Assembly (NCBI RefSeq): GCF_000184345.1
Contig: NC_017583.1
Coordinates: 496,001 to 560,000 of the forward strand
Length of the DNA: 64,000 bases
Origin: Spirochaeta thermophila DSM 6578
GTDB lineage: Bacteria > Spirochaetota > Spirochaetia > Winmispirales > Winmispiraceae
Direction: 5' to 3'
Shown here piece by piece: positions 3,373-64,000 of this stretch. The translations under genes were made by a program, and so were the position numbers. The stretch's first letter is position 1. Every line of letters begins with the position of its first letter. The notes under the pieces were generated by a model. The model saw only the letters and a program-made list of their open reading frames with translations. It did not search any database and was not told where the DNA came from.

Positions 3373-3392
3373 ATGTCCTCCTCATCTATAGC

Positions 3393-4151
3393 ATGCACCA
3401 GCGGGGGATGGATATTCCAGTGCTACTACGTTTTTTCTCCCCTCTCCGGCGGGAGTTGCCGTGTGGGGTCGTGATTGGTACCTTTAAGGATGTGAGGGAG
3501 CACGAACGACTGCTGAGGAAGGCGGTGCGACATCTTGCGCGACACAGAACAAGGGAGGCCCTCTCCCTCCTCAAACGGTGCGTCACGCTCTGTCCATCGG
3601 GAGAGAAGGCGTTCCTGGGACGGGCCTTCCACCTCCTGGGGATCTCCCTCCGTCGGATGGGTGCGTGCGGTCCCGCGCTCCGTGCCTGGCTCGCAGCATA
3701 TCGCATCCGGAAGGAACCGCGTCTCCGCCGCAGGATTCTCTCCAGCCTCAACGAGTACGGCATGCTGAAGCAGCACACGCCCGAGCAGGACGACTGGAAG
3801 GCGTTCTACGCCATCCAGGTGCGGAGGTATCTCTCCTCGAAGCGGAGCGCCCACTTCTCCTCTCGCGCCGAGAAGGACATGATCGACCAGCTCATCTGGG
3901 AGTACTGGAGGGATGTCCGTCGGATGTACGACCTTTCCTCGCTTTCCACGACTCAGAAACTGCAGGTCTTCCACGATGTCGAGATCGTGTTCCCCTGGAT
4001 GGTCTTCATCCCTCCCGAGGCCACACCTCTGGAGGTCCCGACCCCCGGCTTCGCGCCTACCCGGAAGTGTACGTGTGGGAGTGGTCTCCCGTTCATGCTC
4101 TGCTGCGGGCGCACGAAAAACTCCGACGAGCTCTGGATAGGGTCATTTTGA
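3393..4151 (+). CDS. SEC-C motif protein with helical (TPR-like) N-terminal part
   Basis: A protein of up to 252 residues ending in a SEC-C zinc motif, CTCGSGLPFMLCCGRTK, as found at the C-terminus of SecA and in many small adaptor proteins. Residues about 34-110 are helical and Leu/Ala/Arg-rich and look like tetratricopeptide-type repeats; the middle (130-190) is charged. The start is uncertain: ATG 3393 and ATG 3408 lack a good ribosome binding site. A GTG at 3492 follows AAGGA and lies 7 nt downstream of a promoter-like TTGCCG-17-TACCTT (3456-3484), giving a 219-residue product that starts where the helical part begins. The function is unknown; SEC-C proteins often bind other proteins or nucleic acids. 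Confidence 0.65.
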   Translation: MHQRGMDIPVLLRFFSPLRRELPCGVVIGTFKDVREHERLLRKAVRHLARHRTREALSLLKRCVTLCPSGEKAFLGRAFHLLGISLRRMGACGPALRAWLAAYRIRKEPRLRRRILSSLNEYGMLKQHTPEQDDWKAFYAIQVRRYLSSKRSAHFSSRAEKDMIDQLIWEYWRDVRRMYDLSSLSTTQKLQVFHDVEIVFPWMVFIPPEATPLEVPTPGFAPTRKCTCGSGLPFMLCCGRTKNSDELWIGSF

Positions 4152-4317
4152 CACGGTTTTCCCGTCCTCCGGAGACTCATGCATAAAATCGACACAGGAA
4201 CCCGGATACGGCGATTGATGAAGCGTCGTATCTATTATCTATCTCTTTTCAAGGAAAAAAGATGGGTTTTGAGTGTTCCATGGTATGGATTTTGCTACTA
4301 TAGCGGCGGAGGAAGCC

Positions 4318-5196
4318 ATGGAAGCAGTCAAGAGAAAGAGGAAACGACGAGTGCAGGATTCAGGGGATGCGAACGTGCTCTCCCTGTATCTCAAGGAGAT
4401 CAACAGGATCCCGCTCCTCAGCCGGGAGGAAGAGGACCACTACGCCCGCCTCGCGGCACAGGGAGATCAGGATGCCAAGGAAAAACTCGTCACCGCCAAC
4501 CTCAGGTTCGTGGTGAACGTGGCGAAGAAGTACCAGAATCAGGGGCTTCCTCTCGCCGATCTCATAAGCGAAGGGAACATAGGCCTCTTGAACGCCATAG
4601 AACGGTTCGATCCCGACAAAGGATATCACTTCATCTCGTACGCGGTCTGGTGGATCAGGCAGGCCATCCTCAAGGCCATAAGCGAGAAGTCCAGGATGAT
4701 CCGGCTCCCGCTCAACAGGGCGAACGAGCTGGTACAGATCGAGAAGGCGCGGAAGCTCGTCCAGACCGAGAGCGGAGAACACAATGAGATAAAGAAGGTC
4801 GCGGAGACCCTGGACTACGACGAGGATCACGTGGCGAACCTCCTCAACCTCTCGAAGGAATACGTGTCTCTCGACACGCCGGTCTACGAGGATCGGGATT
4901 CCGCGATGCTGGGCGACTACCTCAAGGACGAGGCCTCCCGACCGCCTGAGGACGTGGTCCTCGAAAAGACCCTCCAGGAGGAAATCCAGGAGGTGCTCGC
5001 CACGCTCACGGAGAAGGAAGCCGAGATCATCCAGTACCGGTTCGGCCTCAACGGCAGACACCCGATGTCGCTCAAGGAGATAGGGGACATGTACAATCTC
5101 ACCAAGGAGCGCATCCGTCAGATAGAGAAGAAGGCGCTCAAGAAGATACAGCAGTCGGAGAAGGCGAAGGTTCTCGAAACGTATCTCGCCTCATAG
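4318..5196 (+). CDS. RNA polymerase sigma factor, sigma-70 family (RpoD/RpoS-like, short)
   Basis: A sigma-70 factor directing RNA polymerase to promoters. All core regions are present: region 1.2/2.1 (LSLYLKEINRIPLLSREEE), region 2.4 (ISYAVWWIRQAI, near residue 105), region 3 (RLPLNRANE), and region 4 with its helix-turn-helix (LTKERIRQIEKKALKKI, near residue 262). At 292 residues it lacks the long acidic region 1.1 of a housekeeping RpoD, so it is closer to a group 2/RpoS-type or minimal primary sigma. ATG 4318 is chosen because GGCGGAGG lies 5 nt upstream; GTG 4273 and ATG 4285 would add residues without a ribosome binding site. It is followed by a stable hairpin. Confidence 0.88.
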   Translation: MEAVKRKRKRRVQDSGDANVLSLYLKEINRIPLLSREEEDHYARLAAQGDQDAKEKLVTANLRFVVNVAKKYQNQGLPLADLISEGNIGLLNAIERFDPDKGYHFISYAVWWIRQAILKAISEKSRMIRLPLNRANELVQIEKARKLVQTESGEHNEIKKVAETLDYDEDHVANLLNLSKEYVSLDTPVYEDRDSAMLGDYLKDEASRPPEDVVLEKTLQEEIQEVLATLTEKEAEIIQYRFGLNGRHPMSLKEIGDMYNLTKERIRQIEKKALKKIQQSEKAKVLETYLAS

Positions 5197-5205
5197 GAGA
5201 GAGTC

Positions 5206-5236
5206 CCGGCCTGTCGTTCCGCGGACGGCAGGCCGG
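5206..5236 (+). terminator. Hairpin after the sigma-factor gene
   Basis: An 11-bp GC-rich stem (5206-5216 with 5226-5236, one G-U pair, 9-nt loop) starts 10 bp after the stop codon. Only TT follows, so it is a weak intrinsic terminator or an mRNA-stabilising hairpin. Confidence 0.45.
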
Positions 5237-5348
5237 TTCACCATATACCCTCGTCCGGTTTTCCGGGATCCGTGGAGGCCGGGCACCCGACCCCGGGAGT
5301 GAACTCCTGATTGTGAATTCCTGATCCATTAGAAAAGGTTAATTTGGC

Positions 5349-5377
5349 TTGTGTGCTTGCACTTTCCGTGCTAATAT
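5349..5377 (+). promoter_or_regulatory. Sigma-70 promoter of ppdK
   Basis: TTGTGT, 17-bp spacer, TAATAT with a TGC extended -10. The expected transcription start is near 5384, leaving a 50-nt leader before the ppdK ATG with GAGGGGG ribosome binding site. Confidence 0.65.
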
Positions 5378-5436
5378 ATCCCGGTACATAGACGAATATA
5401 ATCGGAATTGTTATCACAAAGCGTTGAGGGGGAAAA

Positions 5437-8100
<2,664 letters not shown>

Positions 8101-44723: not shown

Positions 44724-46010
44724 ATGCAAGGACGGATCATCGCGGGATCCTTCCTGAGGGATCCCGGCAAGAAGGTGCTCGCAGGCGTGACGATGCTCTT
44801 CGCCTCGGCGCTCGTCTCGTTGCTCCTCAATCTCACGATGGACATCGGGGACAAGATGGCGAGGGAGCTCTCCTCCTATGGGGCGAATCTGCTCGTCACC
44901 CCCCGTACGCGCTCCACGGGTCTCAGGATAGGGAGCGTGGCATACAATCCGTTTGAGGAGGAGGCATTCCTCGAAGAGTCCGACCTCCCTAAGATCAAGA
45001 GTATCTTCTGGCGGCACAACATCACCGCCTTCGCCCCCTTCCTCGAGAGTACGGCCGCACTGTCGAACGGGGCTTCGGTGCCCCTGGTCGGCACCTACTT
45101 CTACAGGTCGATACCGGTCCCGGGTGGGAGGACCTTCTCCACGGGGGTGAAGACCCTCTACCGCTTCTGGGAGGTGGAAGGGAGGTTCCCGGAGGACGAG
45201 GCGGAGACGGTGGAGGTGCTGGTCGGGACGTCCCTCGCGCGTCGGCTCGGGGTCCGGCCTGGGGAGGTCCTCACACTGGAGGATGGTGGATCACTCCTGG
45301 TCACGGGCATCCTGGCATCGGGAGGGGAGGAGGACGAGATGATTCTCGCTCCGCTCTCCTTTGTACAGCGACATGGAGGCCTCGAGGGAAAGGTCTCCTA
45401 CGTGCGGGTGGCGGCCCTCACCACGCCGGAGGATGCCCTTGCGAGGCGGGCGCGGCGGGATCCCGGCTCGCTCACCGATAGGGAGTGGGATCTCTGGTAC
45501 TGCACGGCCTACGTGGGGGCCATCGCATACCAACTGGAGGAGGCGATTCCGGATGCCCGGGTCTCGCCCGTCTGGCAGGTGGCGGCCGGCCAGGGCGAGA
45601 TCATGACCAAGGTACAGTTCTTCCTCGGGGTGATCACCATCGTGGCCACCATCGCGGCGGCCCTCGGAATCTCCTCCATCATGACCACCGTGGTCCTCGA
45701 GCGGTCGCGGGAGATCGGATTGATGAAGGCCCTGGGCGCACCACGCTTCCTCATCCTCTCCCAGTTCTACGTGGAGGCGGGGGTCATCGGCATCCTGGGA
45801 GGGGCCATGGGCTGGGCATTCGGGTACGGGATGAGCGGAGTGCTCTCCCTGCAGCTCTTCGGAAGAGGGGTGGGGTTCAGACCTGTTGCCATCCCCCTCG
45901 TGCTCCTCACCTCCCTCTTCTGCTCGCTCTTCGGGACATGGTTCCCCTCGCGGTCTTCGCCGGATTCGTCGTCAAGGCCCTCGTCAACCAGCGCAACAGG
46001 ACCGGCGTGA
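44724..46010 (+). CDS. FtsX/MacB-type ABC permease (first)
   Basis: A 428-residue permease with the MacB/FtsX layout: one N-terminal helix (KVLAGVTMLFASALVSLLLNL), a long periplasmic domain (about 45-290) and three C-terminal helices (FFLGVITIVATIAAALGISSIM, EAGVIGILGGAMGWAFGYG, VALIPLVLLTSLFC). SREIGLMKALGA is the ATPase-coupling segment. After TWFPSR the last 19 residues are Ser/Pro/Arg-rich and read like an out-of-frame tail, and the gene overlaps the next by 73 bp. ATG follows GGAGG. It matches the Cj1661-type gene of P19 operons. Confidence 0.85.
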   Translation: MQGRIIAGSFLRDPGKKVLAGVTMLFASALVSLLLNLTMDIGDKMARELSSYGANLLVTPRTRSTGLRIGSVAYNPFEEEAFLEESDLPKIKSIFWRHNITAFAPFLESTAALSNGASVPLVGTYFYRSIPVPGGRTFSTGVKTLYRFWEVEGRFPEDEAETVEVLVGTSLARRLGVRPGEVLTLEDGGSLLVTGILASGGEEDEMILAPLSFVQRHGGLEGKVSYVRVAALTTPEDALARRARRDPGSLTDREWDLWYCTAYVGAIAYQLEEAIPDARVSPVWQVAAGQGEIMTKVQFFLGVITIVATIAAALGISSIMTTVVLERSREIGLMKALGAPRFLILSQFYVEAGVIGILGGAMGWAFGYGMSGVLSLQLFGRGVGFRPVAIPLVLLTSLFCSLFGTWFPSRSSPDSSSRPSSTSATGPA

Positions 46011-47074
46011 TCCTCCTCTCCCTGGTGGTGGGAGCCGCGGTCTTCTCCGCCGTCTCTCTCGTGACGCTCGACGTTCCCGAGAAGATGAGCCGCGAACTGA
46101 GGAACTTCGGGGCGAACGTCCTCATCGTCCCTGCAGAGGGGATGACCGAGGTCCCGGAGGATCGCGTGGGAGAGGTCGTCTCCTCGTTTCCCGGGGAGGC
46201 CCTGGTGGGGTGGAGCCCTCTCCTGTACGGCAAGGTGCGTCTCGATCTGGGCGAGGCGATGCTCGCGGGTGGAAGATTCCCCGACATGAGGAAGGTCTTC
46301 CCCTACTGGCAGGTCGAGGGTTCCTGGATCGGTGTGCCCTTCGACAACCGAAACGTCATGATGGGCTCTCGTCTCGCCGAGGAGATGGAGCTCGAGGTGG
46401 GGGATGAGGTCGTCCTCTACGGCGGGGACCGGGCAACACGATGGCGCATGCGTGTGAAGGGGATCGTCGAGACGGGCGGGGAAGAGGAGCTTCAGCTCTT
46501 CGTGAACATCGAGGTGGCGAGGGCCGTGCTCGACCGGGCCGAGGGCGTGGATCTCGCTGCCCTGAGTGTGGATACCCACGCGGTGGACCTCGAGTCCCAT
46601 CTCGGACGGATCCAGGAGCGATTCCCCGACGTGCAGGTGAAACCCGTCCTGCAGATCGCCCGGTCCGAGGGTGCGGTGCTCGAGAAGGTCCGCGGCCTCT
46701 TCGTGGTGGTGGCGGCGGTGATGATGCTCATCGTGGTCATTTGTGTGATGACCACCCTCATCGCGGTGATCTCGGAGCGTCGGTACGAGATCGCCCTCAT
46801 GCGGGCCATAGGGGCCGAGCTCTCCCATGTGGTGAGGAGGTTCGTCGCGGAACTCCTGGTGCTCTCGTCTTCTGGTGCCCTCGTGGGGGTGGTGCTGGGG
46901 TGGGGGATCGCCCAGTGGATAGGACGTTCGGTGTTCGGCACGTGGATCGATCTCGAGGCGGTGATACTCCCCTCGGCCCTGGTGCTCACCGGTCTGGTGG
47001 CCCTCGTGGCCGCCTTTCCCGCCCTCTGGATCGCGGGCCGAATCGACCCGGCCCGCATCCTCAAGAACGAGTAG
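45938..47074 (+). CDS. FtsX/MacB-type ABC permease (second)
   Basis: A 378-residue permease of the same type: N-terminal helix VILLSLVVGAAVFSAVSLVTL, periplasmic domain (about 50-250), then LFVVVAAVMMLIVVICVMTTLIAVI, ERRYEIALMRAIGA and two further helices. ATG 45938 lies within the first permease gene; no Shine-Dalgarno is clear, so translation is probably coupled. The N-terminal MVPLAVFAGFVVKALVNQRNR is what a relative would have before helix 1. With the ATPase gene it forms an ABC unit that may drive release or transfer of iron, as proposed for P19 systems. Confidence 0.85.
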   Translation: MVPLAVFAGFVVKALVNQRNRTGVILLSLVVGAAVFSAVSLVTLDVPEKMSRELRNFGANVLIVPAEGMTEVPEDRVGEVVSSFPGEALVGWSPLLYGKVRLDLGEAMLAGGRFPDMRKVFPYWQVEGSWIGVPFDNRNVMMGSRLAEEMELEVGDEVVLYGGDRATRWRMRVKGIVETGGEEELQLFVNIEVARAVLDRAEGVDLAALSVDTHAVDLESHLGRIQERFPDVQVKPVLQIARSEGAVLEKVRGLFVVVAAVMMLIVVICVMTTLIAVISERRYEIALMRAIGAELSHVVRRFVAELLVLSSSGALVGVVLGWGIAQWIGRSVFGTWIDLEAVILPSALVLTGLVALVAAFPALWIAGRIDPARILKNE

Positions 47075-47091
47075 ACGTGAGGAGGTGAGAC

Positions 47092-47781
47092 ATGCGTTGC
47101 GTTCTGGAGCTCAAGGATATCACCCGATCGTACGGGTCGATCGATGCCCTCGACCGGCTCTCCCTCCGGGTGGAGGAAGGGGAGTGGCTCGCGATCATGG
47201 GGCCCTCCGGTGCAGGAAAGACCACGCTTCTCAACATACTCGCCCTCCTCGACACTCCCACCTCAGGGGAGTACATCCTCGATGGGAGGAAGACCGCCAG
47301 CCTCTCGGAACACGAACGGGCCGTGCTTCGGAGGGAGAAGATAGGGTTGGTGTTCCAGCAGTTCCATCTGGTACCCTACCTCACCGCCCTGGAGAACGTG
47401 ATGGTCGCCCAGTACTATCACAGTATGGCCGATCGGAGGGAAGCGGAGGCGGTGTTGAGGAAGGTGGGGCTCGGTGAGCGCCTCTCCCACAGGCCGTCCC
47501 AGCTCTCCGGAGGCGAGAAGCAGCGGGTCTGCATCGCCCGTGCACTGGTCAACGAGCCTGCGCTCCTCCTCGCGGACGAGCCCACCGGGAACCTCGACGA
47601 GAGGAACGAGGGGATCGTGCTCGACCTCTTCCGCGCGCTCAAACGGGAGGGGCGGACCATCATCATGGTGACCCACAACCCCAATCTGGCGAAGGAGGCG
47701 GACCGCATCGTGTACCTCAACCACGGCAGGATATCGCCCGTGAATCCCTTTGTGGAGGAGGTGGTGGATGCGCGTCCGTAG
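47092..47781 (+). CDS. ABC ATPase (MacB/LolD type)
   Basis: A 229-residue ATP-binding subunit for the two FtsX-type permeases. It has Walker A GPSGAGKTT (near 38-46), Q-loop VFQQFHLVPYLTALENV, signature LSGGEKQRVCIARAL and Walker B LLLADEPTGNLD, with the switch His in MVTHN. ATG follows GAGGTGAG. It overlaps the FMN-binding lipoprotein gene by 14 bp. Confidence 0.93.
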   Translation: MRCVLELKDITRSYGSIDALDRLSLRVEEGEWLAIMGPSGAGKTTLLNILALLDTPTSGEYILDGRKTASLSEHERAVLRREKIGLVFQQFHLVPYLTALENVMVAQYYHSMADRREAEAVLRKVGLGERLSHRPSQLSGGEKQRVCIARALVNEPALLLADEPTGNLDERNEGIVLDLFRALKREGRTIIMVTHNPNLAKEADRIVYLNHGRISPVNPFVEEVVDARP

Positions 47782-48205
47782 GGCCTTGTCCGCAGTGGTG
47801 GGGGTGCTGCTTCTCACGGCCGCGGGGTGTGGCCCGGAGCGCATCGTGCTCTCGGGCCTTGCGGACGGCCGGTACGAGGTGGTGCTCTCCGATCGCAGGG
47901 TGTACGGCTATGTAGCCTATATGGTGCTGGAGGTGAGAGGTGGACGGATCGCGGCGGTGGAGTACGACGAGCGGAACCCCCGCACCGGTCGTTCGAAGAC
48001 GGGCGATGAAGCGCAGAACCGGGAGATGATGCGTCTGAGCGGGAGGGAATGGGGCGAGGTGGTGGAGGATCTGGAGGGGCTCGTGCTCGGGGCAGGGAGC
48101 GAGCTCAGTCTGGATGCGGTGAGCGGGGCGACGAGGACCTCGGAGGCCTTCCGGGAGGCGCTGCTGAGGGCGCTGGAGGAGGCGCGGGGAGGCGCCTCCG
48201 AGTAA
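47768..48205 (+). CDS. FMN-binding-domain lipoprotein
   Basis: A 145-residue exported flavoprotein candidate. The signal ends LLTAAGC, so Cys20 is probably lipidated. The mature part is an FMN_bind domain: GRYEVVLSDRRVYGYVAYMVLEVRGGRIAAVEYDERN and DAVSGATRTSEAF (near 114-126), whose Thr in SGAT is the site at which ApbE attaches FMN through phosphodiester linkage. It sits at the end of the iron operon, where other P19 operons carry thioredoxin-like proteins, so it may act as the ferric reductase or electron carrier. ATG 47768 overlaps the ATPase stop. No apbE gene is in the window. Confidence 0.85.
   Translation: MRVRRALSAVVGVLLLTAAGCGPERIVLSGLADGRYEVVLSDRRVYGYVAYMVLEVRGGRIAAVEYDERNPRTGRSKTGDEAQNREMMRLSGREWGEVVEDLEGLVLGAGSELSLDAVSGATRTSEAFREALLRALEEARGGASE
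48178..48199 (+). terminator. Hairpin at the end of the iron operon
   Basis: GGAGGCGC, 6-nt loop, GCGCCTCC within the last codons of the FMN-binding gene. There is no T-run, so any termination may need Rho. Confidence 0.35.
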
Positions 48206-54319: not shown

Positions 54320-55642
54320 TTAGGCCGCAGGCCTGAGCAGGGAGCGTATCTGGTTTGGCTGGTTCTCTCGCACTCGTCCCAGGGCAAGGGCACTCATGAC
54401 AGAAAACACCAGCGTGAGGTGAACCGACAGTTTCTCCTGCCCCCGGATCGTGTGGAGTTCCAGGCTAAAGCTTCGATCCAGCCGGCTGTGGATCCGCTCC
54501 AAGGCCGTTCGCTTGGCATACTCCCGCTTCCACCGATACGAAGATCGGGCGAGAGGCGTGAAGACTCTGCGGTCCGTGGAGAGGGGGATCCGAATACAGG
54601 AGGCCAAGGGACAGGAGGCTTTGCCTGCACACTCATACCCATAGTGCACCGCAGGACAGCCGTACTTCAACGTGCCCCGCTTCTCTTCAAATCCCCGGTA
54701 GGCCATCTCCCGCTGCGTCCCCGTGGCCATACAGACACAACTCACCGTCCCTTGGTAGTCATACACCACATTTCTTGTCCCCGGGACCAGCCTGGTCTGT
54801 TCTCCATCTTTCCACAGGTTGCGAATATCGATGACCGGTTTGATCCGGTGCTCGTGCCACAACAGATCTATCAACGTGCCATCATCATAGCCCCGGTCGG
54901 CCGTGAACACTTCCGCCGCCTTGAGTATATGCGGCCTATGGCGATCCAGGGACCGAATCAGCTTTCGCATCACCGGCACCTCGTGCTTTGAGGCCCGACT
55001 CACCGTAAAGGCCACCGGCAGTTCATACGCTGTATCCGCAAGGAGGTGCACCGTAAACCCGAACCATTTCTTTACCGACTTCTGCACCTCCCCCCGTTCA
55101 TTCTGATACACATACTCATGACACCCCCAGTCCGCATCGTGCTCCCCTCGCCGGTCTCCGGCACCCTTCCCCCTTCGACGGGCAACGCTTGCTATCCCCT
55201 TCCCATCGGCTCCCAGCCGCCGCCCAAATCCAGGCAGCTCCCGGTAGCACTGATCCACCAGGCTGGTAAACACCCTTACCAGTGCTTCCCGGATACTCCG
55301 CTTCCTCAAGGTGGAAAGAAACCGGCTGTACGCGCTGGCACTGGGTACCGCATCGCTTCCCCGGGTAGGATCACATCCACACAGGTCCCTCAGTTGCCCG
55401 TTCCGCAAGAGCTCCCGGCGTAGCTGCTCGATGCTCGGGTGCTGAAACACTATCCCCGCAACGAGCGAGTTCCACATCGCCCGTACCGGATATTCATTCC
55501 GGCCTCTCCCCCGCCTCTGTTCCAGCTACTGCATCAGTTCCTCATCCGGCAGGTTCTCCAACACCAGCCGAAGCCGATGTAAATCCCCCAATGCTTCTAC
55601 ATCGTGCCAGCAAAAAAGTGATTTCTGTGCTATACTTGCCAT
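54320..55642 (-). pseudogene. Transposase of IS copy 2 with a nonsense codon
   Basis: Collinear with the 440-residue transposase at 32600-33922. A CAG-to-TAG change (55526-55528, codon 39, within LMQQLEQ) ends translation early. The rest of the frame is open from an internal ATG (385 residues) but lacks the N-terminal domain. A few other residues differ from copy 1 (for example ETKLVAGTPN versus QTRLVPGTRN), so the copies have been separate for some time. Confidence 0.85.
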
Positions 55643-55919
55643 GGGCCCCTCCGTCGGTTTTCTGCTACCATGATTCTATCATGGAAAAACCCGGGGGCCC
55701 TCTTTTTTGGGGTCAATTTTTCAACTCCGACCTCGTTTTCCCCTTCTATCGCACCTGTGGACCGCTTTTTTGGGGTAAAATAAATCCCCACCCGCTTGTA
55801 ATTTCTTTACCTATCGTTGCGTGAAAACAGCGCAAAAGGCTCGGACCTGTCTTCTCTTGACAAATCCCCCCACTAATAAGAGACTATTCACTATACCATC
55901 CTTGAAGGACGTAGGTACG

Positions 55920-56393
55920 ATGGGAAACGGTCTCGTTCGGGTGCTCTCTCATCCGGTGTTCCTGTCCGGTTTCTTGAGTTGGTTCTGTGCGCAGGTGATC
56001 AAGCTCCTGGTGGAGGCGTTGAAGAGGAGACGGAGATTCGCCTCTCCCCTGCTCCCCGTGGTCCTCTGGAAGACGGGTGGGATGCCTTCGAGCCATTCGG
56101 CCCTGGTGACCGCCCTCGCGACTTCGATCGGGTTCCATGATGGGGCCGATTCCTCGCTCTTCTTCCTGAGTGTCTTCTACGCCGCCATCATCATAAGGGA
56201 TGCAGTGGGGGTGCGGAAGGCGGCGGGTCAGCAGGCACAGGTCCTCAATCGTCTTGGTGAGGGCGTTCGGGAGAAGCTGGGGGTGGAGTTCACGCCGGTG
56301 AAGGAGGTGACCCACGGCCATACCTTCCCGGAAGTGGGGGTGGGTATGGTCCTCGGTTTCTCCATCGCCCTGGTGGTGAGTCTTCTCTCGTAG
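55920..56393 (+). CDS. Divergent PAP2-family (DUF212) membrane protein
   Basis: A 157-residue membrane protein of the DUF212/divergent PAP2 group, distantly like lipid phosphatases. Key segments: WFCAQVIKLLVEALKRR, WKTGGMPSSHSALVTALATSIG (near 52-73), AIIIRDAVGVRKAAGQQAQVLN and EVTHGHTFPEVGVGMVLG, with the PSSHS and GHT His residues matching the PAP2 pattern. Three to four helices. ATG follows GAAGGACGTAGG. It begins 77 bp beyond IS copy 2 and 10 bp before the next membrane gene, so it may be the first gene of the rnf-containing operon. Confidence 0.85.
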   Translation: MGNGLVRVLSHPVFLSGFLSWFCAQVIKLLVEALKRRRRFASPLLPVVLWKTGGMPSSHSALVTALATSIGFHDGADSSLFFLSVFYAAIIIRDAVGVRKAAGQQAQVLNRLGEGVREKLGVEFTPVKEVTHGHTFPEVGVGMVLGFSIALVVSLLS

Positions 56394-56403
56394 GAGGGAT
56401 CCG

Positions 56404-57864
56404 GTGCCCAGGAGGGAGGTGCAGGATATCCGTGCGTACTGGAGTGGGGTCGGAGGGGGCGTGCTCTTCGTGGGGGCCCTCGTGCTCATGATGTTCCTGT
56501 CGGACGGGTCGGGCGGCTGGGAGGGGGTCCAGGTGCTGGGGATACGAGAGAGCGTGGCTCCGGAGGTGGTGGTGGAGGCGCTCGAGAGGAAGGGCCTGGG
56601 GCCGGTGGTGTGGGAGGGGAGCCAGGAGGTGGAGTTGTGGGAGGGACGGGAGCTGGGGCGGTACAGGCTCAGGGATCTCCCTTCGAGACTCGATCCGGCC
56701 GATCCGAGGTACGATCCCTACCTCTCATGGTTGCCTTCGATGTTCGAAGGGAGGGTGGGTGGAGAGGTCGTCTCCCTCCTCTACGTGCCGCAGCGACACG
56801 GCGCCCTCTGGTTTCTCTTCGAGGTGCTCCCGGTGCTCCGGGCCTTTCCCGGAAAGGTGGTGCTCATGGGGCAGGGGTGGCCGGTGAGGTTCTTCCTCGC
56901 CGGGGTGTTCCTGGGACTCCTCGTGTGGTGGGCCTGGGGGAGATGGGGCGTGTGGGCCGTGGCGGGTGGTGTGGGTTGGGTGGTCGTGGTGGGGACCGGA
57001 GGGGTGGGGATGGTGCCCGCCGCCGCCTCAGGGATGGTGAGTTTTCTGCTCCTCCTGCCGCCGGTTGCCGAGGTGATGGAGAGAGGGGTCCTGTGGGGAT
57101 GGAGGTGGGAGGAGTGGGGCGGGGTCGTGTGGTGGGGAGTGATCCATCTCACGGTGGTGGTGGGATGGGCGGTCTTCATCGGGAGCTGGGCGGTGGTGTC
57201 GGCCCTGCTGGTGGAGTGTGGAGTGGTGGGGATGATGATCGCCTACTTCACGTGGTGGCGGAGCCGGCTCTCACATCGGGTCTTTCGTCCGGTACCCCTC
57301 AGAAGACGTACCCGTACCGACTCCGGCAGAAACCTCCCCCGCTGGGGGTGGGGGCTCCTGCTCCTGATATGTGCCACGATTGCTGCCGGCGCGGGGCTTG
57401 CCGGGGACGAGGTGGAGATTCCCCTTCCCGGGGAGGGACCGTGGTGGCAGGGGGCTGACGGCTATCTCGCACACCGGGCCTTCCAGGAGGGCTTTCTGTT
57501 CAACGTGCCGTTCGAGCTTCCCACCCAGGGGACGACAGTGACCCTCCCCCGCTACCGGGTTGTAGGGAATGAGGTCGTGAGGGAGGAGGTGGTGGTTCTC
57601 GTGTTCGATGCGGCTTGGTTTCGGAGGGTGGAGGATCTTTCTCCCAATAGACTCGAACATCTCTTTCTCGGCACGGGGAGGAATGTCTCATTCGTCCCCT
57701 CACAGCTGACGGTCCAGTGGCGTTGGCCTGTGCAGGCGGCGGGCCTCCTCATCCTTCTTCTCCTGCTCCTGCCCGAGATTCTCAAGAGGGGGGCGGGTTT
57801 GACTTTTGAAACCAGGTATGGTATGAGAGCAGCCATCCGGAAGGAGGGGAGGCAGGTCGCATGA
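56404..57864 (+). CDS. Unrecognised multi-pass membrane protein coupled to rnfC
   Basis: A 486-residue protein with no family I can name. Layout: N-terminal helix (GGGVLFVGALVLMMFL, 17-32), an extracytoplasmic or cytoplasmic domain (about 40-155), a block of six hydrophobic helices (about 160-290), a further helix (LLLLICATIAAGAGLAG, about 320), a second soluble domain with EGFLFNVPFELPTQ (360-440) and a last helix (AAGLLILLLLLLPEIL). It is Trp/Val/Gly-rich with strong G bias. GTG follows GAGGGATCC. Its stop overlaps the rnfC start (ATGA), so it is made together with the Rnf-like subunits and is a candidate extra subunit. Confidence 0.75.
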   Translation: MPRREVQDIRAYWSGVGGGVLFVGALVLMMFLSDGSGGWEGVQVLGIRESVAPEVVVEALERKGLGPVVWEGSQEVELWEGRELGRYRLRDLPSRLDPADPRYDPYLSWLPSMFEGRVGGEVVSLLYVPQRHGALWFLFEVLPVLRAFPGKVVLMGQGWPVRFFLAGVFLGLLVWWAWGRWGVWAVAGGVGWVVVVGTGGVGMVPAAASGMVSFLLLLPPVAEVMERGVLWGWRWEEWGGVVWWGVIHLTVVVGWAVFIGSWAVVSALLVECGVVGMMIAYFTWWRSRLSHRVFRPVPLRRRTRTDSGRNLPRWGWGLLLLICATIAAGAGLAGDEVEIPLPGEGPWWQGADGYLAHRAFQEGFLFNVPFELPTQGTTVTLPRYRVVGNEVVREEVVVLVFDAAWFRRVEDLSPNRLEHLFLGTGRNVSFVPSQLTVQWRWPVQAAGLLILLLLLLPEILKRGAGLTFETRYGMRAAIRKEGRQVA

Positions 57865-59183
57865 GGTCGCTCCTTGCCGGCCGCGTGAGAGGCGGTCTGG
57901 AGTTCCGTTCCTATGTACAGACGGTGGATCGTCGGGTGGTGAACGCATCCCTTCCCAAGGTGGTGGTGATCCCTCTCGCATGGGGAAGGATGGAGGCTTC
58001 CCATCCTGTGGTGAAGCCGGGCGATGAGGTGAAGGAGGGTCAGTTGCTCGCGAAACCGGCGAGCGTCCTGGGGACGCCCCTCTATTCCTCGGTTCCCGGG
58101 AGGGTACGGGACATCGTCCCTGTCTCCCTTCCGGAGGGTGAACGGGAGGCCGTGATCTTGGACCTCGCCGGGACCTTCGAGCGTCGCGCGAAAGACCGGA
58201 CGTCCGACTGGGCTGATATGACGCCGGAGAAACTCTGGAAGCGGCTCTTCTCGTCGGGGGTGATCCGGCACGGGAACGTTCCCCTCCCGATCGGGAGGTT
58301 CCTCCCGCCGCCGGGTCGTAAGGCCGAGGCCTTGGTCTGCGCCTGTTTCTCTGCGGAGCCGTGGCGGTATACCGAGGAGCTGCTCCTCGGGCTCCGGCGC
58401 GAGGCCGTGGCCGAGGGGCTCCGCATCCTCGTGCGCACCGTGATGCCCAAGGAGGTGCATCTGGTCTTCCCTGAAGAGGAGAGAACGGTTTCCCGCCTCT
58501 TCGTCAGGGACCTGGGGGATCCGGGTATTCCCGTGCGGATCCACCATGTCGCGAGACGGTATCCCTTCACCTCGGACGAGATGCTCCTCGAGCTTGTGGG
58601 AGGGGCACGCCTCACCTGGGGTAGGCTTCCCGTGGACGAGGGATTCGTGATCGCGGAACCCTCCACTCTCCTCGCGGTGAGGGATGCGGTCGTCGGCGGG
58701 AGGCCTGTGCTCGAACAGGTGGTTCTGGTGGGTGGCGATGTAGTGGAGCGCCCCGTTCTCGTGAAGGTCCGGCTGGGTATGCCCGTATTCGATCTCCTCT
58801 CCCAGGAGGGGACGATGCCCGGTCCCGATGTGGATCCGATGGTCTTCCTGGGAGGACCTCTCTCCGGCAGGGAGGTCTCATGGCTCGGGGTACCGCTGCT
58901 TCCCGGCGTGGATGTGGTGACGCTCCTCGGGAGAGGGGCGACAGGGGGGGAGGAACCGTGCATCCACTGCAGCCGCTGTGCGCAGGTCTGTCCGAGGGGG
59001 CTCGAGCCCTGGCTCCTCCACGAGGCCCTCGGAAGAGGGGACGAGCGACTCCTTTCCGGAGGAGCGATCGAGGGGTGTATAGGTTGCAACCTGTGCAGTT
59101 TCGTCTGTCCCTCGGCCATTCCCCTCGCGGATCGGTTCAGGGAGTATCTCGAGAAGGAGGGGGAAGGTCATGGAGAGGGTTGA
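57861..59183 (+). CDS. rnfC: RnfC-like subunit with two 4Fe-4S motifs and a degenerate nucleotide site
   Basis: A 440-residue peripheral subunit. In Rnf, RnfC oxidises or reduces NAD(H) through a bound FMN. The barrel-sandwich region VVIPLAWGRMEASHPVVKPGDEVKEGQLL is clear, and the C-terminus has CIHCSRCAQVCP (near 367) and CIGCNLCSFVCP (near 405) for two 4Fe-4S clusters. The region that should hold the glycine-rich GLGGAGFPT loop reads SSGVIRHGNVPLPIGRF (near 132), the NGAECEPY block reads VCACFSAEPWRY, and the QGGEKQ block reads RYPFTSDEM. NAD/FMN binding is therefore doubtful. It overlaps both neighbours. Confidence 0.85.
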   Translation: MRSLLAGRVRGGLEFRSYVQTVDRRVVNASLPKVVVIPLAWGRMEASHPVVKPGDEVKEGQLLAKPASVLGTPLYSSVPGRVRDIVPVSLPEGEREAVILDLAGTFERRAKDRTSDWADMTPEKLWKRLFSSGVIRHGNVPLPIGRFLPPPGRKAEALVCACFSAEPWRYTEELLLGLRREAVAEGLRILVRTVMPKEVHLVFPEEERTVSRLFVRDLGDPGIPVRIHHVARRYPFTSDEMLLELVGGARLTWGRLPVDEGFVIAEPSTLLAVRDAVVGGRPVLEQVVLVGGDVVERPVLVKVRLGMPVFDLLSQEGTMPGPDVDPMVFLGGPLSGREVSWLGVPLLPGVDVVTLLGRGATGGEEPCIHCSRCAQVCPRGLEPWLLHEALGRGDERLLSGGAIEGCIGCNLCSFVCPSAIPLADRFREYLEKEGEGHGEG

Positions 59184-60201
59184 CGGTGGGAGGCTCGTCC
59201 TGGGCTCCAGGCAGGTCTACGAGGGGAAGAAGGTGCTCGCCCTGCTCCCGGTGCTGGGGGGGATGGCGGTGCTCTTCGGTCCGGAGGGGCTCCTGCCGAC
59301 CGCGGCTGCAATCGTGGGGAGCCTCGGCGCGGACCTCCTCATGGCGCGTCTCTTCTCCCGAAGGGTACGGCCCTCGTGGGATGCGGTGGGGCTCGGGCTC
59401 CTCGTGGGGCTCTTCCTGCCTCCCGGACTCCATCCCGTTGCCGGGTTTCTCGCCGCGGTCTTCGGTCAGGTGGTGGCGCGCTGGACCTTCGGCGGCCCTG
59501 CTCGCGCCTGGTTCCATCCTGCGGTGGCGGCCGTGCTCTTCGCCGTGGTCTCCTTTCCCTTCGATGCGGGAAGCTACCTTCCGCCGCTCTTCGGGGATCG
59601 GGTGCAGGGACTCCCGCTCTTCGTCGAGGCGAAGCGTCTCCTCTCGGGGCTCCGGGGGGGGAGCGTCCTCCAGATGGTGGGGCTCACCCCGAGCGGGATC
59701 GACGTGCGGGTCACGGGTGTGCTCAACGATGTGATCTTCGTGCCCCTTCGTTCGTATCTTCCCGATGGATACGTGGATCTCGCATTGGGGAACGTGCCGG
59801 GTGCGGTGGGCGCGCAGATGGGGCTCTTCGTCTTCCTCGGTGCCCTGATCCTCGTGTACGAGGAGGCGGTGCGGGTGGATCTCCCCTTCCTCTTCCTGGG
59901 GGCTTACACCCTCCTCGTCTTCGTTGCAGGAGGGGGACCGGAGGGAGGAGCCGACGTGCTCTTCTACCTGGGTGCCACCGATGTGGTACTCACCGCCTTC
60001 TTCCTCGTCCCCGATGAGGTCTCCAGGCCTTCCAGGGCGGGACTCCTTCCCTGGTATGCGGTTGCGGGAGGCCTCCTGGCCGGGCTCTTCTCCCTGGGTG
60101 GGGCCTTTCCCTATCCCGGGCTCCTTTGTGCCGCGGTGCTCAACCTCACGGTCCCGCTCGTGGATCACCTTTCCGTAGCCCGGGTGGGGGGTCGCGCATG
60201 A
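59170..60201 (+). CDS. rnfD: RnfD-like membrane subunit lacking the flavinylation Thr
   Basis: A 343-residue membrane protein with eight to nine helices, matching RnfD in length and in LLVGLFLPPGLHPVAGFLAAVFGQV, YVDLALGNVPGAVGAQMG (near 200-215) and AFFLVPDEVSRPSR (near 280). Canonical RnfD carries covalent FMN on Thr of an SGAT-type motif just before the LGNVPG block. Here the aligned stretch reads DVRVTGVLNDV (near 177-187), with Leu in place of the acceptor Thr. ATG overlaps rnfC by 14 bp. Confidence 0.85.
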   Translation: MERVDGGRLVLGSRQVYEGKKVLALLPVLGGMAVLFGPEGLLPTAAAIVGSLGADLLMARLFSRRVRPSWDAVGLGLLVGLFLPPGLHPVAGFLAAVFGQVVARWTFGGPARAWFHPAVAAVLFAVVSFPFDAGSYLPPLFGDRVQGLPLFVEAKRLLSGLRGGSVLQMVGLTPSGIDVRVTGVLNDVIFVPLRSYLPDGYVDLALGNVPGAVGAQMGLFVFLGALILVYEEAVRVDLPFLFLGAYTLLVFVAGGGPEGGADVLFYLGATDVVLTAFFLVPDEVSRPSRAGLLPWYAVAGGLLAGLFSLGGAFPYPGLLCAAVLNLTVPLVDHLSVARVGGRA

Positions 60202-60704
60202 GGCACGTGCTCGATCAACGCTTCGATGTGGGGTTGGTGGTGCTCTTCTTCCTCTCGACGCTCGCGCTGATAGGGAGCGGCTATGTCTTCCTGGGCGGGA
60301 GGCTGGAGGACCGGGATGCGGTGGGGGTGCGTCTCGTGCTCGGGGGGGAGGGATTGCAGGTGGAGGAGATGGGGCTTCCTGTTTCCGCAGGGAGCGTGTA
60401 TCGGGTGTCGGGCGAGGGGGAAGGGGTGTGGGCCGTGGCGCTCCCGGTGGTGTGGCGCGAGGCGGGGCTCGTGGTGGTGCTCTATGATGGAACGGGTGCG
60501 GTCGTGGATGTGCGGTTCCCCTACGGGCTCGAGGCGGGAGGGGACGATCCGTACGATACGGATCGTCTCAGGCGGCTCCTCCTGGATCGGAGTGCCCGGC
60601 GTCTGTGGCACGAGGTGAAAGGGGTCGATCCTCTCCTGCTCCGGAAGGTGGAGGAGGCGGTGCGCCTCGGACGATCGCTCCTCGAGGAAGGAGGTCTCCT
60701 CTAG
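60198..60704 (+). CDS. rnfG: RnfG-like subunit lacking the FMN-binding motif
   Basis: A 168-residue protein in the rnfG position, shorter than typical RnfG (about 200). It has one N-terminal helix (VGLVVLFFLSTLALIGSGYVF) and a small exported domain. The conserved HxETPGLG block and the D-x-x-SGAT-x-TS flavinylation motif are absent; the C-terminus reads EVKGVDPLLLRKVEEAVRLG where the motif is expected. The assignment rests on position, topology and weak similarity. ATGA overlap with rnfD indicates coupling. Confidence 0.65.
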   Translation: MRHVLDQRFDVGLVVLFFLSTLALIGSGYVFLGGRLEDRDAVGVRLVLGGEGLQVEEMGLPVSAGSVYRVSGEGEGVWAVALPVVWREAGLVVVLYDGTGAVVDVRFPYGLEAGGDDPYDTDRLRRLLLDRSARRLWHEVKGVDPLLLRKVEEAVRLGRSLLEEGGLL

Positions 60705-61313
60705 ATGGAAAGGGCGGGTTTCTTTCACGGCAACATCCTCCTGGTCGCGGGGTGCGGGCTCGCCCCGGCGCTCGCACTCACCACGAGGTTCGGCTACGGT
60801 CTCCTTCTCGGACTCGTGGCCTGGGGCCTGCTCCTCTTCCTCTCGCTCCTCTTCTCCTCGTTCAGGGAGTACCTGCGCAACCGCCAGATGCAGCTCGCGG
60901 TCTTCTTCATCGTGGGAGGAACCACGGTGAGTCTCATGGAGCTCGGTTTCAGGGCCTGGGCACCGGAGGTGCTCAGGGTGCTCGGGTTGTACCTGCCGGT
61001 GCTGGTGGTGGGTTCGCTCGTGTGGGGGTACGGGGTGGCCTACGGTCTCTCCCACCGTCCCAAGCGCACGTTCCGGATGGCGATGCGTGTGGGCGGGGGA
61101 TATGCGGCGGCCGTGGTGGTGATGGCCTTCGTGAGGGAGCTTCTGGGCTACGGTGCTCTCAGTCTGGTGCCCTTCGCCGATGTGGTCTTGGTGGTGCCGG
61201 GGCTCGGGGACCTGCCCCTGCGGGCGGCGGTGGCCCCTGCGGGTGCCTTCTTCGTCTTCGGTTACCTCGCCGCCCTGGTGCGGCTCGCAGGGAGGGATGG
61301 TGATGCCCGCTGA
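60705..61313 (+). CDS. rnfE: RnfE-like membrane subunit lacking conserved cysteines
   Basis: A 202-residue six-helix protein of the RnfE/RnfA (NqrD/NqrE) family: GLAPALALTTRFGYGLLLGLV (near 18-38), LYLPVLVVGSLVWGYGVA (near 95-112) and FVRELLGYGAL (near 142). In canonical RnfE the motifs are GLCPALAVTT and PLIVVNCAIIG, whose Cys help hold a membrane [2Fe-2S] cluster. Here they are Ala20 and Gly103-Ser104; the only Cys is Cys17. It starts directly after rnfG and overlaps rnfA by 11 bp. Confidence 0.83.
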   Translation: MERAGFFHGNILLVAGCGLAPALALTTRFGYGLLLGLVAWGLLLFLSLLFSSFREYLRNRQMQLAVFFIVGGTTVSLMELGFRAWAPEVLRVLGLYLPVLVVGSLVWGYGVAYGLSHRPKRTFRMAMRVGGGYAAAVVVMAFVRELLGYGALSLVPFADVVLVVPGLGDLPLRAAVAPAGAFFVFGYLAALVRLAGRDGDAR

Positions 61314-61884
61314 TGCGCTTCTCTACCTCGGACCTTCGCACCTCGCGTTCGCCTTCTTCCTGGGGCTCTCCCTCCTGTTCTCCGGTGTCTCCCGTGTGAG
61401 GGATGCGTTCTTCCTGGGCGGGGTGGTCACGGGTCTCCTGCTCCTCGCCGGGCTCTACCAGTATGCCCTCGAGCGGTGGGTCCTCTCGGCCCTGGATGTG
61501 CGGGCCTTCAGGCTCATGGGGTTCCTTCTCGGGTTCGGAGGCGTGCTCGTGCTCCTTTTCCAGATCCTCAGGTATCTCGCGCCGGGAGAGGACGATCGGT
61601 GGCTCGAACTGGTGATGCGTGGCGATCTCGTGGCGCTGGTGCTCGGCGGGGTGCTCGTGGTGCTCGAGGGTGAGGGGTCGCTCGGCTGGTCGCTCTGGGG
61701 GCTCCTCTGGGCGGGTGTGGGGTTCGCCGCAGGGCTCCTCTTCTACGTGGGGATCCTTCACCGGGTGGAGGGGCCGGAGGTGCCCGGGCCGCTCAGGGGG
61801 CTTCCGGTGCGGGCGGTCTGTGCGGGTCTCGTGGCCTTGGTGGTCGAGGTGACGGGGTACGCTCTGTACCCTCTGTTCGTATAG
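61303..61884 (+). CDS. rnfA: RnfA-like membrane subunit lacking conserved cysteines
   Basis: A 193-residue six-helix protein, exactly the usual RnfA length. Similarity runs throughout: AFAFFLGLSLLFSGVSR aligns with the canonical VKFLGLCPFMGVSK region, then FRLMGFLLGFGGVLVLLFQIL and GVGFAAGLLFYVGILHRV...VPGPLRG. The first conserved Cys is Ser23, and the NCAVLG block aligns with LVALVLGGVL without Cys; the single Cys in the protein is near 176. ATG 61303 has GGGAGGG 6 nt upstream. No rnfB gene follows; ribD begins 9 bp after the stop. Confidence 0.83.
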   Translation: MPADALLYLGPSHLAFAFFLGLSLLFSGVSRVRDAFFLGGVVTGLLLLAGLYQYALERWVLSALDVRAFRLMGFLLGFGGVLVLLFQILRYLAPGEDDRWLELVMRGDLVALVLGGVLVVLEGEGSLGWSLWGLLWAGVGFAAGLLFYVGILHRVEGPEVPGPLRGLPVRAVCAGLVALVVEVTGYALYPLFV

Positions 61885-61893
61885 GAGGTTGGT

Positions 61894-62982
61894 GTGGCGG
61901 AGCGTGATGTGGTGTTCATGAGACGGGCACTCGCCCTCGCACGGAGGGCCGAGGGGCGGACGTCGCCCAATCCCATGGTGGGTGCCGTGGTCGTGAAGGA
62001 TGGGCGCGTGGTGGGTGAGGGTTTCCACGAGCGGGCCGGGCTCCCTCATGCCGAGGTGACGGCCCTCTCCGAGGCGGGGGGGGAGGCGCGGGGTGCGGAG
62101 ATGTACGTGACCCTCGAGCCGTGCTGTCACTGGGGGAGGACCCCGCCGTGTACGGATGCGATCCTCAAGGCCGGGGTGCGGAGGGTGGTGGTGGCGTGCA
62201 GGGACCCGAATCCGCAGGTGGCGGGCAAGGGGCTTTCGATCCTCGCCGAAGCGGGGGTGGAGGTGGAGGTGGGGGTGCTCTCCCGGGAGGCGCGGTGGCT
62301 CAACAGGGGGTTCATCTCGAGGATGGAGCGGGGGAGGCCGTGGGTGGTGGCCAAGGTGGCCGCCTCTCTCGATGGGAGGATCGCCCTGCCGGATGGACGT
62401 TCGAAGTGGATCACGGGTGAGGCGTCCCGACGCGAGGTGCACCGGTTGCGCGCGGGGAGCGATGTGCTCGTCACGGGGATCGGCACGGTGCTGGCCGACG
62501 ATCCGGCCTTCACGGTGCGGGTTCCGGTGGGGGAAGGGCGGGATCCCGGGGTGGTGGTGTTGGATACACGGGGAAGGCTCCCGGTGGGGGCCCGGGTCGT
62601 ACGGGAGGGTACGGTGGTGATGGTGGGGCCGGGGGTGGATGAGGGTTGGCGCGGGGAGATGGAGAGGCGAGGGGTGCGGGTGGTGGAGATGGGGGTCAGG
62701 GGGGAGAGGGTGGATGTGGAGGCGGTGTGTGCGTGGCTTGGGCAGGAGGGGGTGAATGTCGTGATGGTGGAGGCGGGGGCCGGGGTGACGGGGGCGTTCC
62801 TCGAGGCGGGGGTGGTGGATGAGCTGGTGGTGTTCGTGGCGCCGAGGGTCCTGGGTGAGGGAAGGGGATGGGTGGAGGGGCGTGTGCTGGAGGGGTTGGG
62901 GGAACGGGAGTGGGAGGTGCGTGAGGTGCGGGGGGTGGGGGAGGATGCGGTGGTGCGGTGCGTGCGGCGGGGGTGGGTGTAG
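61894..62982 (+). CDS. ribD: Bifunctional riboflavin deaminase/reductase
   Basis: Makes 5-amino-6-ribitylamino-uracil phosphate from the GTP cyclohydrolase II product, in two steps. The N-terminal deaminase domain has the zinc motif HAEVTAL (near 50) and PCCHWGRTPPC (near 76-86). The C-terminal reductase domain begins near 145 (VVAKVAASLDGRIALPDGRSKWITG) with DVLVTGIGTVLADDPAFTVR. A 362-residue protein of normal length. GTG 61894 follows ATAGGAGGTT. The 3' half is very G-rich with skewed codons. Operon with ribE; probably also read from the rnf side. Confidence 0.94.
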   Translation: MAERDVVFMRRALALARRAEGRTSPNPMVGAVVVKDGRVVGEGFHERAGLPHAEVTALSEAGGEARGAEMYVTLEPCCHWGRTPPCTDAILKAGVRRVVVACRDPNPQVAGKGLSILAEAGVEVEVGVLSREARWLNRGFISRMERGRPWVVAKVAASLDGRIALPDGRSKWITGEASRREVHRLRAGSDVLVTGIGTVLADDPAFTVRVPVGEGRDPGVVVLDTRGRLPVGARVVREGTVVMVGPGVDEGWRGEMERRGVRVVEMGVRGERVDVEAVCAWLGQEGVNVVMVEAGAGVTGAFLEAGVVDELVVFVAPRVLGEGRGWVEGRVLEGLGEREWEVREVRGVGEDAVVRCVRRGWV

Positions 62983-63006
62983 GAGTCTTGTACGAGGAGG
63001 GGTACG

Positions 63007-63648
63007 GTGTTCACAGGTATCGTTCGTGAGATCGGTGTGGTGCGGGAGGTGAGGAGGGAGGGGGGAGGGCTGGTGGTGCGGGTGGAGGGGCCGGGGGTGG
63101 TGGGGGTGTTGGAGGTAGGGGCGAGTGTGGCGGTGGACGGGGTGTGCCTCACGGTCACGGCCCTGGATGAGCGTACGTTCCGTGCGGACGTGAGCTACGA
63201 GACGGCGGCGCGGAGTACGCTGGGGGGGGTGCGCGTGGGGAGGAGGGTGAACCTGGAGCCGGCGTTGGCGGTGGGCGAGCGGTTGGGGGGGCATCTGGTG
63301 TCGGGGCACGTGGATGGTGTGGGGCGGGTGATGGTGCGGGAGCGACGGAGCGGGGGGGAGTACTTCGCCGTCTGGGTACCGCCGGAGCTGAGGAAATACA
63401 TCGCTCCCAAGGCCTCGGTGGCGGTCGACGGTGTCAGCCTCACCGTTGCCGAGAAACTCCCCGAAGGGTTCAGTGTGGTCGTCATTCCCCATACCCTTGC
63501 GGTCACCACCCTCTCGGATCGACGCCAGGGAGAGCCGGTGAACCTCGAGTGCGACATCCTCGCCAAGTACGTGGAGAGCCTCCTCCTCGAGGGAGGCTCG
63601 GGCACGGGCGGCCTCACCATCGAACGGCTCCGCGACCTCGGGTTCTAG
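63007..63648 (+). CDS. ribE: Riboflavin synthase (alpha subunit)
   Basis: Dismutates two 6,7-dimethyl-8-ribityllumazines to riboflavin. A 213-residue protein with the two lumazine-binding repeats: N-terminal FTGIVREIGVV with DGVCLTVTAL and the second copy VDGVSLTVAEKLPEGFSV; SGHVDGVGRVM and VVIPHTLAVTTLSDRRQGEPVNLECD are typical. GTG start after GAGGAGGGGTACG. It belongs to the ribD-ribE-ribB cluster. No FMN riboswitch is seen ahead of ribD or between these genes. Confidence 0.94.
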   Translation: MFTGIVREIGVVREVRREGGGLVVRVEGPGVVGVLEVGASVAVDGVCLTVTALDERTFRADVSYETAARSTLGGVRVGRRVNLEPALAVGERLGGHLVSGHVDGVGRVMVRERRSGGEYFAVWVPPELRKYIAPKASVAVDGVSLTVAEKLPEGFSVVVIPHTLAVTTLSDRRQGEPVNLECDILAKYVESLLLEGGSGTGGLTIERLRDLGF

Positions 63649-63718
63649 ACGTACCTCCCTTTTCGATACAAAAGGATTGGAGTATTATAGACCACAGAAC
63701 GAGGAGTGAGGGACGAAC

Positions 63719-64000
63719 ATGGCGAGTGAAGAGACGCATGACATATTCGCCTCGATCGAGGAGGCCATAGAGGAATTCCGGGCGGGCCGCCCTCTCGTGG
63801 TGGTCGACGATGAGGAGCGGGAGAACGAGGGTGACGTGATCGTGGCGGCCGAAAAGATCACCCCCGAGCTCGTGAACTTCATGGCCAAGGAGGCCCGGGG
63901 CCTCATCTGTGTGGCCATCACCGAGGAGCGGGCCAAGGAGCTCGATCTCGAGCCCATGACGCCGGAGAACGAGGACACCCTGGAGACGGCCTTCACCGTG
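63719..64000 (+). CDS. ribB: 3,4-dihydroxy-2-butanone 4-phosphate synthase (RibB or RibBA), 5' part only
   Basis: The first 94 codons of an enzyme that turns ribulose 5-phosphate into the four-carbon precursor of lumazine; the gene runs off the window. Family text: IEEAIEEFRAGRPLVVVDDEERENEGDVIVAAE with the acidic metal and substrate site, then FMAKEARGLICVAIT. In many bacteria this domain is fused to GTP cyclohydrolase II; the end is not visible, so that cannot be told. ATG follows GAGGAGTGAGGGACGAAC. A TATTAT -10-like hexamer lies at 63683-63688. Confidence 0.9.
   Translation, partial: MASEETHDIFASIEEAIEEFRAGRPLVVVDDEERENEGDVIVAAEKITPELVNFMAKEARGLICVAITEERAKELDLEPMTPENEDTLETAFTV

Follow-up and report, generated by a model that had tools for sequence, protein, structure and literature searches.

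The question raised by this locus is what an Rnf-like operon does when its RnfD and RnfG both lack the motifs for covalent FMN attachment. A preliminary description of the window (the whole 64,000-nt stretch of Spirochaeta thermophila DSM 6578 DNA that was analyzed) had reported both motifs missing from the two proteins, here called RnfD' and RnfG', and alignments and motif checks bear this out. RnfG', 168 residues long, contains zero matches to [ST]G[AS][TS] and zero to ETPG, and thus neither an SGAT site nor an ETPGLG block. As for RnfD', DVRVTGVLNDV, which precedes LGNVPG (59785-59802), had been read as an altered SGAT-type site. No SGAT-like string is indeed present in RnfD', but DVRVTGVLNDV is a different loop, since alignments put the flavinylated Thr of other RnfDs upstream, near LPLFVEAKR (59611-59637). 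The segment, a predicted periplasmic loop downstream of the FMN site, fits the pattern DxxxTxxLN...PxGY. Roughly half of the RnfDs with complete cofactor sites have this pattern too, and in the RnfDs of cofactor-stripped loci (hereafter stripped) each of its positions is 82-97% conserved. The same FMN sites are missing in a sister species (L041) and in a member of a different genus within the family (L038), which shows that the loss is not due to chance.

The two genes belong to an operon (Table 1) in which DUF212, X, rnfC', rnfD', rnfG', rnfE' and rnfA' are followed by ribD, with neighbors overlapping or abutting. Descent from Rnf is evidenced by the homology of the core subunits (PF03116, PF02508, and RnfC_N all score above cut-off) and by the shared operon order, while family scores are well under curated levels (41 bits for RnfA' vs. 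229). RnfG' is identified only by its position and weak profile/fold evidence; it has no Pfam or NCBIfam match, and a fold search returned no significant match (best 9eri_G, probability 0.66, E 0.26). No promoter was found by consensus scan. The operon is closely preceded by a transposase-like ORF of 385 residues that runs the other way (54320-55477, minus strand). Directly after rnfA', on the same strand, are the riboflavin synthesis genes ribD (61894), ribE, and ribBA (61894-64000). The presence of flavin-synthesis genes beside a cofactor-poor Rnf may be chance or the fossil of a flavin-related operon.

Table 1. Features of the window, with positions counted from its first nucleotide
Feature	Position	Strand	Remarks
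DUF212 (divergent PAP2), first operon gene	55821..56393	+	PF02681 137 bits; real start maybe further downstream
Protein X, membrane protein, two predicted periplasmic domains	56404..57864	+	Spirochaetal Rnf-operon partner; RND-like predicted fold
RnfC'	57861..59183	+	RnfC_N above cut-off; both CxxCxxCxxxC motifs kept, Gly-rich FMN/NADH loop gone
RnfD'	59170..60201	+	343 aa; PF03116 121 bits; no flavinylated Thr
DVRVTGVLNDV loop within RnfD'	59701..59733	+	Conserved periplasmic-loop pattern
RnfG'	60198..60704	+	168 aa; one TM helix and small beta domain; AF2 pLDDT 76
RnfE'	60705..61313	+	PF02508 88.5 bits; both AE1 [2Fe-2S] cysteines replaced
RnfA'	61303..61884	+	PF02508 26.2 bits; both AE1 cysteines and TTNC motif lost
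FMN_bind lipoprotein, SGAT intact (48122-48133)	47768..48205	+	PF04205 26.9 bits vs. cut-off 22; likely flavinylated

The preliminary description was incomplete in that RnfD' and RnfG' are not the only RnfD and RnfG of this genome, and the absence of flavin sites, as far as sequence can tell, is only one aspect of an almost complete loss of redox sites, operon-wide and in much of the phylum. In Acetobacterium woodii, the membrane [2Fe-2S] cluster (AE1) is held by RnfA C25/C113 and RnfE C25/C108 (PMC11889175), and Rnf activity is abolished by mutating the AE1 cysteines, RnfG T185, or RnfD N123/D249 (PMC11889175). When the window's proteins were aligned with PDB structures, all four AE1 ligands were found to be replaced, RnfE' having Ala at C25 and Ser at C108, and the equivalents of both covalent-FMN threonines, RnfD T156 and RnfG T185 (A. 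woodii numbering), were absent. RnfC' has GVIRHGNVPLPI (58257-58292) in place of the FMN/NADH glycine loop G[IV]VGxGGAxFP. RnfB is absent from the operon, since rnfA' is followed directly by ribD, and the syntenic operon of L038 likewise has none. In the riboflavin site of RnfD', the N123 equivalent is His (59509-59529), while the Asp equivalent to D249 is retained (59998-60015). The only Rnf cofactor motifs left intact in the operon are the two [4Fe-4S] motifs of RnfC', CIHCSRCAQVCP and CIGCNLCSFVCP (CxxCxxCxxxCP; 58959-58994 and 59076-59111).

Without RnfB, the RnfC loop, the AE1 ligands, and the FMN threonines of RnfD and RnfG, the complex lacks the electron path known from Rnf and so cannot work as a ferredoxin:NAD+ oxidoreductase or as a redox-driven Na+ pump of the type described so far; presumably it does not pump. 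Missing residues differ from missing cofactors, and noncovalent flavin or other cofactors would be compatible with the sequence. An alternative is a pump of the Rnf type that still works, with other ligands and with flavins bound noncovalently, as the literature assumes for the “noncanonical RNF” of Treponema pallidum. This would fit the finding that none of the core subunits C, D, G, E, and A is missing and that each can be recognized (G by position), and energy conservation by such a complex has been proposed for T. pallidum (PMC7512555). We nevertheless consider it very improbable, because the electron-entry subunit RnfB and every known trans-membrane cofactor site are missing, because single changes at the corresponding positions inactivate A. 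woodii Rnf, and because the Na+-path residues are lost.

The genome as a whole retains a complete Rnf and, very probably, flavinylation. The 2.56-Mb genome encodes one ApbE and, besides the window operon, which is its third and divergent member of the RnfD/NqrB family, two further RnfD/NqrB loci: a complete Rnf in the order B-C-D-G-E-A (L039), where the genome's RnfB is found, and an NQR (L040). Flavin motifs are present in both (TGAT and TAAT in Rnf, TSAT and TGAT in NQR), and their AE1 cysteines are intact. An intact SGAT was also reported in a separate lipoprotein, from which it had been supposed that the organism flavinylates proteins. The motif is where it was reported, and the ApbE together with the flavin sites in Rnf and NQR make flavinylation of other proteins very probable. 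Organism-wide loss of flavinylation as the sole cause is ruled out by the ApbE and the sites in Rnf, NQR, and the lipoprotein. Ahead of this lipoprotein gene are genes for the permease and ATPase of an ABC transporter, judged by eye to be of the MacB/LolCDE type (45485-48205).

We then read about 60 loci across the spirochaetes, using DUF212 as anchor. The ancestral-looking order is DUF212-X-C-D-G-E-A-B-GH57, followed in some loci by prfB, with RnfB not always present. Many spirochaetes carry X in an Rnf operon, upstream of rnfC in most loci read, and DUF212 adjoins it in L038, L069, L075, L083, L110, and others. Every cofactor site is present in 18 of the loci, and four have a partial set. 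The stripped class numbers 41 loci, counting those that have RnfC; they belong to nine family-level groups and include the locus in the window. Within the stripped set, the RnfC glycine loop is kept in 0/41, the RnfD Ser/Thr in 5/40, the RnfG motif in 1/30, RnfE C25 in 4/37 and C108 in 2/37, and RnfA C25 and C113 in 1/40 each; all four AE1 cysteines occur together in none, and the RnfB ferredoxin-domain cysteines are found in 1/17. Equivalents of Na+-path residues are similarly scarce (RnfE E115 in 3%, RnfA T110/T111 in 8%/0%). RnfC has all eight of its cluster cysteines in 40/41, and Borreliaceae are the only stripped lineage without them. Five genomes with a stripped locus were tested, and each carries, elsewhere, a separate Rnf with pump-type sites. 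In G002, a genome from a different genus of the family, the operon is also present, with the losses seen in the window and likewise without RnfB, its RnfD' retaining both the riboflavin Asn and Asp. Shortened forms of RnfB also exist: in L069 (6940-7629), it is missing the N-terminal [4Fe-4S] domain through which RnfB docks onto RnfA/E, the AE1 cysteines being lost too, and Treponema-type loci have a similarly shortened RnfB. We found no description of a cofactor-stripped Rnf in the literature searched.

In an RnfC tree, both complete and stripped members of the syntenic locus group together, to the exclusion of the complete Rnf encoded elsewhere in the window's genome (SH-aLRT 99), which indicates that the stripped operon derives from a spirochaete Rnf operon and not from L039. 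The tree also unites the stripped RnfCs (97), a grouping that is perhaps due to long-branch attraction. An informative intermediate is the partial locus L117, which keeps the AE1 cysteines and RnfB, while the RnfC FMN/NADH loop, the RnfD Thr, and RnfG were not found. Its RnfC is placed among the stripped ones with weaker support (94), and since L117 has all four AE1 cysteines, this position points to the AE1 site having been lost more than once. On a GH57 tree, four to six label changes are needed, of which well-supported branches force only one or two. Retention is mosaic, with AE1 cysteines in L117, the RnfG SGAT in L080, and the RnfD Ser/Thr in five loci. This pattern favors repeated site-by-site loss, and both trees would fit one or several strippings.

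Such graded and patchy losses across the phylum, a complete Rnf elsewhere in the genome, and the disappearance of the rnf genes from L078 (G028; 3286-7404), where DUF212, X, and GH57 are still adjacent, are what one would expect of a decaying remnant, that is, a duplicate Rnf operon losing its function beside another Rnf and without a present role. The frames are open, however, with operon overlaps, and DUF212, X, C', D', G', E', and A' have dN/dS values of 0.13-0.30 between the window and the sister species (the neighboring ribD, at 0.26, is comparable). Values in Borreliaceae are 0.14-0.23 (about 0.16), and the genes are retained in the small genomes of T. pallidum and Borrelia, which have no other RnfD. 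Low dN/dS, a sign of purifying selection, together with conservation across genera excludes neutral decay into pseudogenes, and a remnant without a role of any kind is a reading to which we give hardly any weight.

The strongest argument for a role independent of redox chemistry comes from the Borreliaceae, which have kept the proteins with, to judge by their sequences, no known Rnf redox cofactor site left. In ten genomes, including Borrelia hermsii DAH and Borrelia turicatae 91E135, the locus reads DUF212, X, a fused RnfC'-RnfD' (about 775 residues), RnfA', and prfB. The fusion (for example, 2499-4823 in L110) lacks the cluster cysteines in 10/10 genomes and matches RnfC_N, Complex1_51K, and NQR2_RnfD_RnfE in Pfam, with no Fer4. 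No other RnfD was found in the Borreliaceae read. X is a lipoprotein in the one Borreliaceae genome examined, and from its position and lipobox we take it to correspond to bb0071 (B. burgdorferi numbering). Larval ticks yielded no transposon mutants of bb0071 (PMC6516651). The locus gives Borrelia hypothetical proteins an origin in a stripped Rnf.

T. pallidum, in which tp0151 has been named rnfD (PMC11371664), presents a similar picture. We identified the genome concerned (G105) by its ApbE, which is identical over 295 residues to PDB 4ifu, the structure of TP0796 (PMC12052999); T. putidum (L127) is also among the loci read. The T. pallidum locus reads DUF212-C'-D'-(G' uncertain)-E'-A'-GH57, with no X and no B. 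RnfC' retains its eight cysteines, while RnfD', RnfE', and RnfA' lack all of the sites, and the single RnfD-family match in the genome is this stripped one. The genome encodes two FMN_bind proteins, neither in the rnf' locus; a small FMN_bind ORF (TP0171-like) is present at 192 kb. An energy-conserving RNF redox pump has been proposed for this species (PMC7512555), but the sequence does not support one. Its energy metabolism is modeled with such a pump, yet the only RnfD found there is of the stripped type, a discrepancy that is directly testable. Should the stripped complex do its work with no trans-membrane redox chemistry, T. pallidum would have no RNF pump, although it has long been credited with one.

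What, then, does the complex do? The main rival to a redox-independent role is a shortened redox enzyme, in which a soluble carrier would feed the RnfC' [4Fe-4S] clusters, then the RnfD' riboflavin, and finally a membrane acceptor, with no trans-membrane loop and no Na+ pumping. Partial electron transfer is possible given the riboflavin Asp in RnfD' and both [4Fe-4S] motifs in RnfC'. Consistent with this, the 8 RnfC' cysteines persist in nearly all stripped loci, G002 has the Asn as well as the Asp, and the RnfC clusters and RnfD riboflavin are in line in the solved Rnf (PMC11889175). However, many Treponema-group loci have another residue in place of the Asp, the window has His for the Asn, RnfC' has no FMN/NADH loop, and Borreliaceae retain the proteins without cluster cysteines. 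We therefore regard a shortened enzyme as unlikely, although far less so than a pump or a remnant. A general role as helper of a complete Rnf is also unlikely, given that no second RnfD was found in T. pallidum or in the Borreliaceae read.

We therefore favor, with reasonable though not full confidence, a redox-independent role: DUF212-X-rnfC'D'G'E'A' would be an Rnf-derived complex from which the electron path has been removed, which no longer pumps, and whose subunit scaffold has been retained for a task independent of trans-membrane electron flow. The wider proposition, that spirochaetes turned an Rnf pump into a complex without trans-membrane redox chemistry, which in Borreliaceae has no known Rnf redox site, we hold somewhat less firmly, leaning toward it. 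As to the task itself, we can only guess that the scaffold might, with X and DUF212, form a support or transport unit for an envelope substrate, and that the RnfC' clusters, where present, could be structural or sensory. X has no Pfam, NCBIfam, or PDB sequence match. Its AF2 model (pLDDT 86) predicts TM1, a periplasmic domain, TM helices, a second periplasmic domain, and a TM segment, without the last TM helices of the 12-TM RND plan. The top 50 Foldseek matches among solved structures are all RND proteins, the best at E 2.6e-3 and none significant at 1e-3, with TM-scores of about 0.2, a weak resemblance between a predicted model and that family. Moreover, L078 shows that X can persist without Rnf, and X is lost in T. 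pallidum, so the parts are separable and the idea of a joint machine is a doubtful one.

These findings bear on how Rnf is understood. Rnf is regarded as a redox machine, and a selected, conserved version without its redox centers would mean that the scaffold has a second function. Stripped versions are widespread in spirochaetes, syphilis and relapsing-fever bacteria included. Annotation as Rnf by homology does not imply a pump, and a product annotated as an energy pump in spirochaetes probably has another job.

Among its nearest known systems, the window operon can be compared first with Rnf itself (RnfABCDGE; A. woodii 9eri, Clostridium tetanomorphum 7zc6, Azotobacter vinelandii 8ahx), with which it shares C, D, E, and A subunits homologous by sequence, the C-D-G-E-A order, and the RnfC [4Fe-4S] motifs, and from which it differs by lacking RnfB, the AE1 cysteines, the RnfC FMN/NADH loop, and covalent FMN in D and G, and by having DUF212 and X as extra genes. 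Na+-NQR offers a parallel, as it is also derived from Rnf, lacks RnfB, and has an RnfC counterpart, NqrA, that lost all redox cofactors (PMC12174285; PMC4014512). NQR differs in having acquired NqrF and retained the [2Fe-2S] cluster, both FMNs, and riboflavin, whereas the window operon has no substitute for RnfB and has lost the trans-membrane cofactors; the operon contains no NqrF, the genome's NQR being a separate locus. Two-subunit Nqr/Rnf-like flavinylation systems have an RnfD-like subunit without a flavinylated Thr, as in RnfD' (PMC11334425). However, their RnfG/NqrC-like subunit is flavinylated and their membrane subunit has a cytosolic NAD-binding PF00175 domain (PMC11334425), while RnfD' is PF03116 only, RnfG' is siteless, and the operon has five Rnf core subunits. 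A further comparison is with the “noncanonical RNF” of T. pallidum (TP0151 = RnfD), whose sole rnfC'D'E'A' set found is likewise of the stripped type and lies between DUF212 and GH57; X has been lost there, and the literature treats the complex as an energy-conserving pump.
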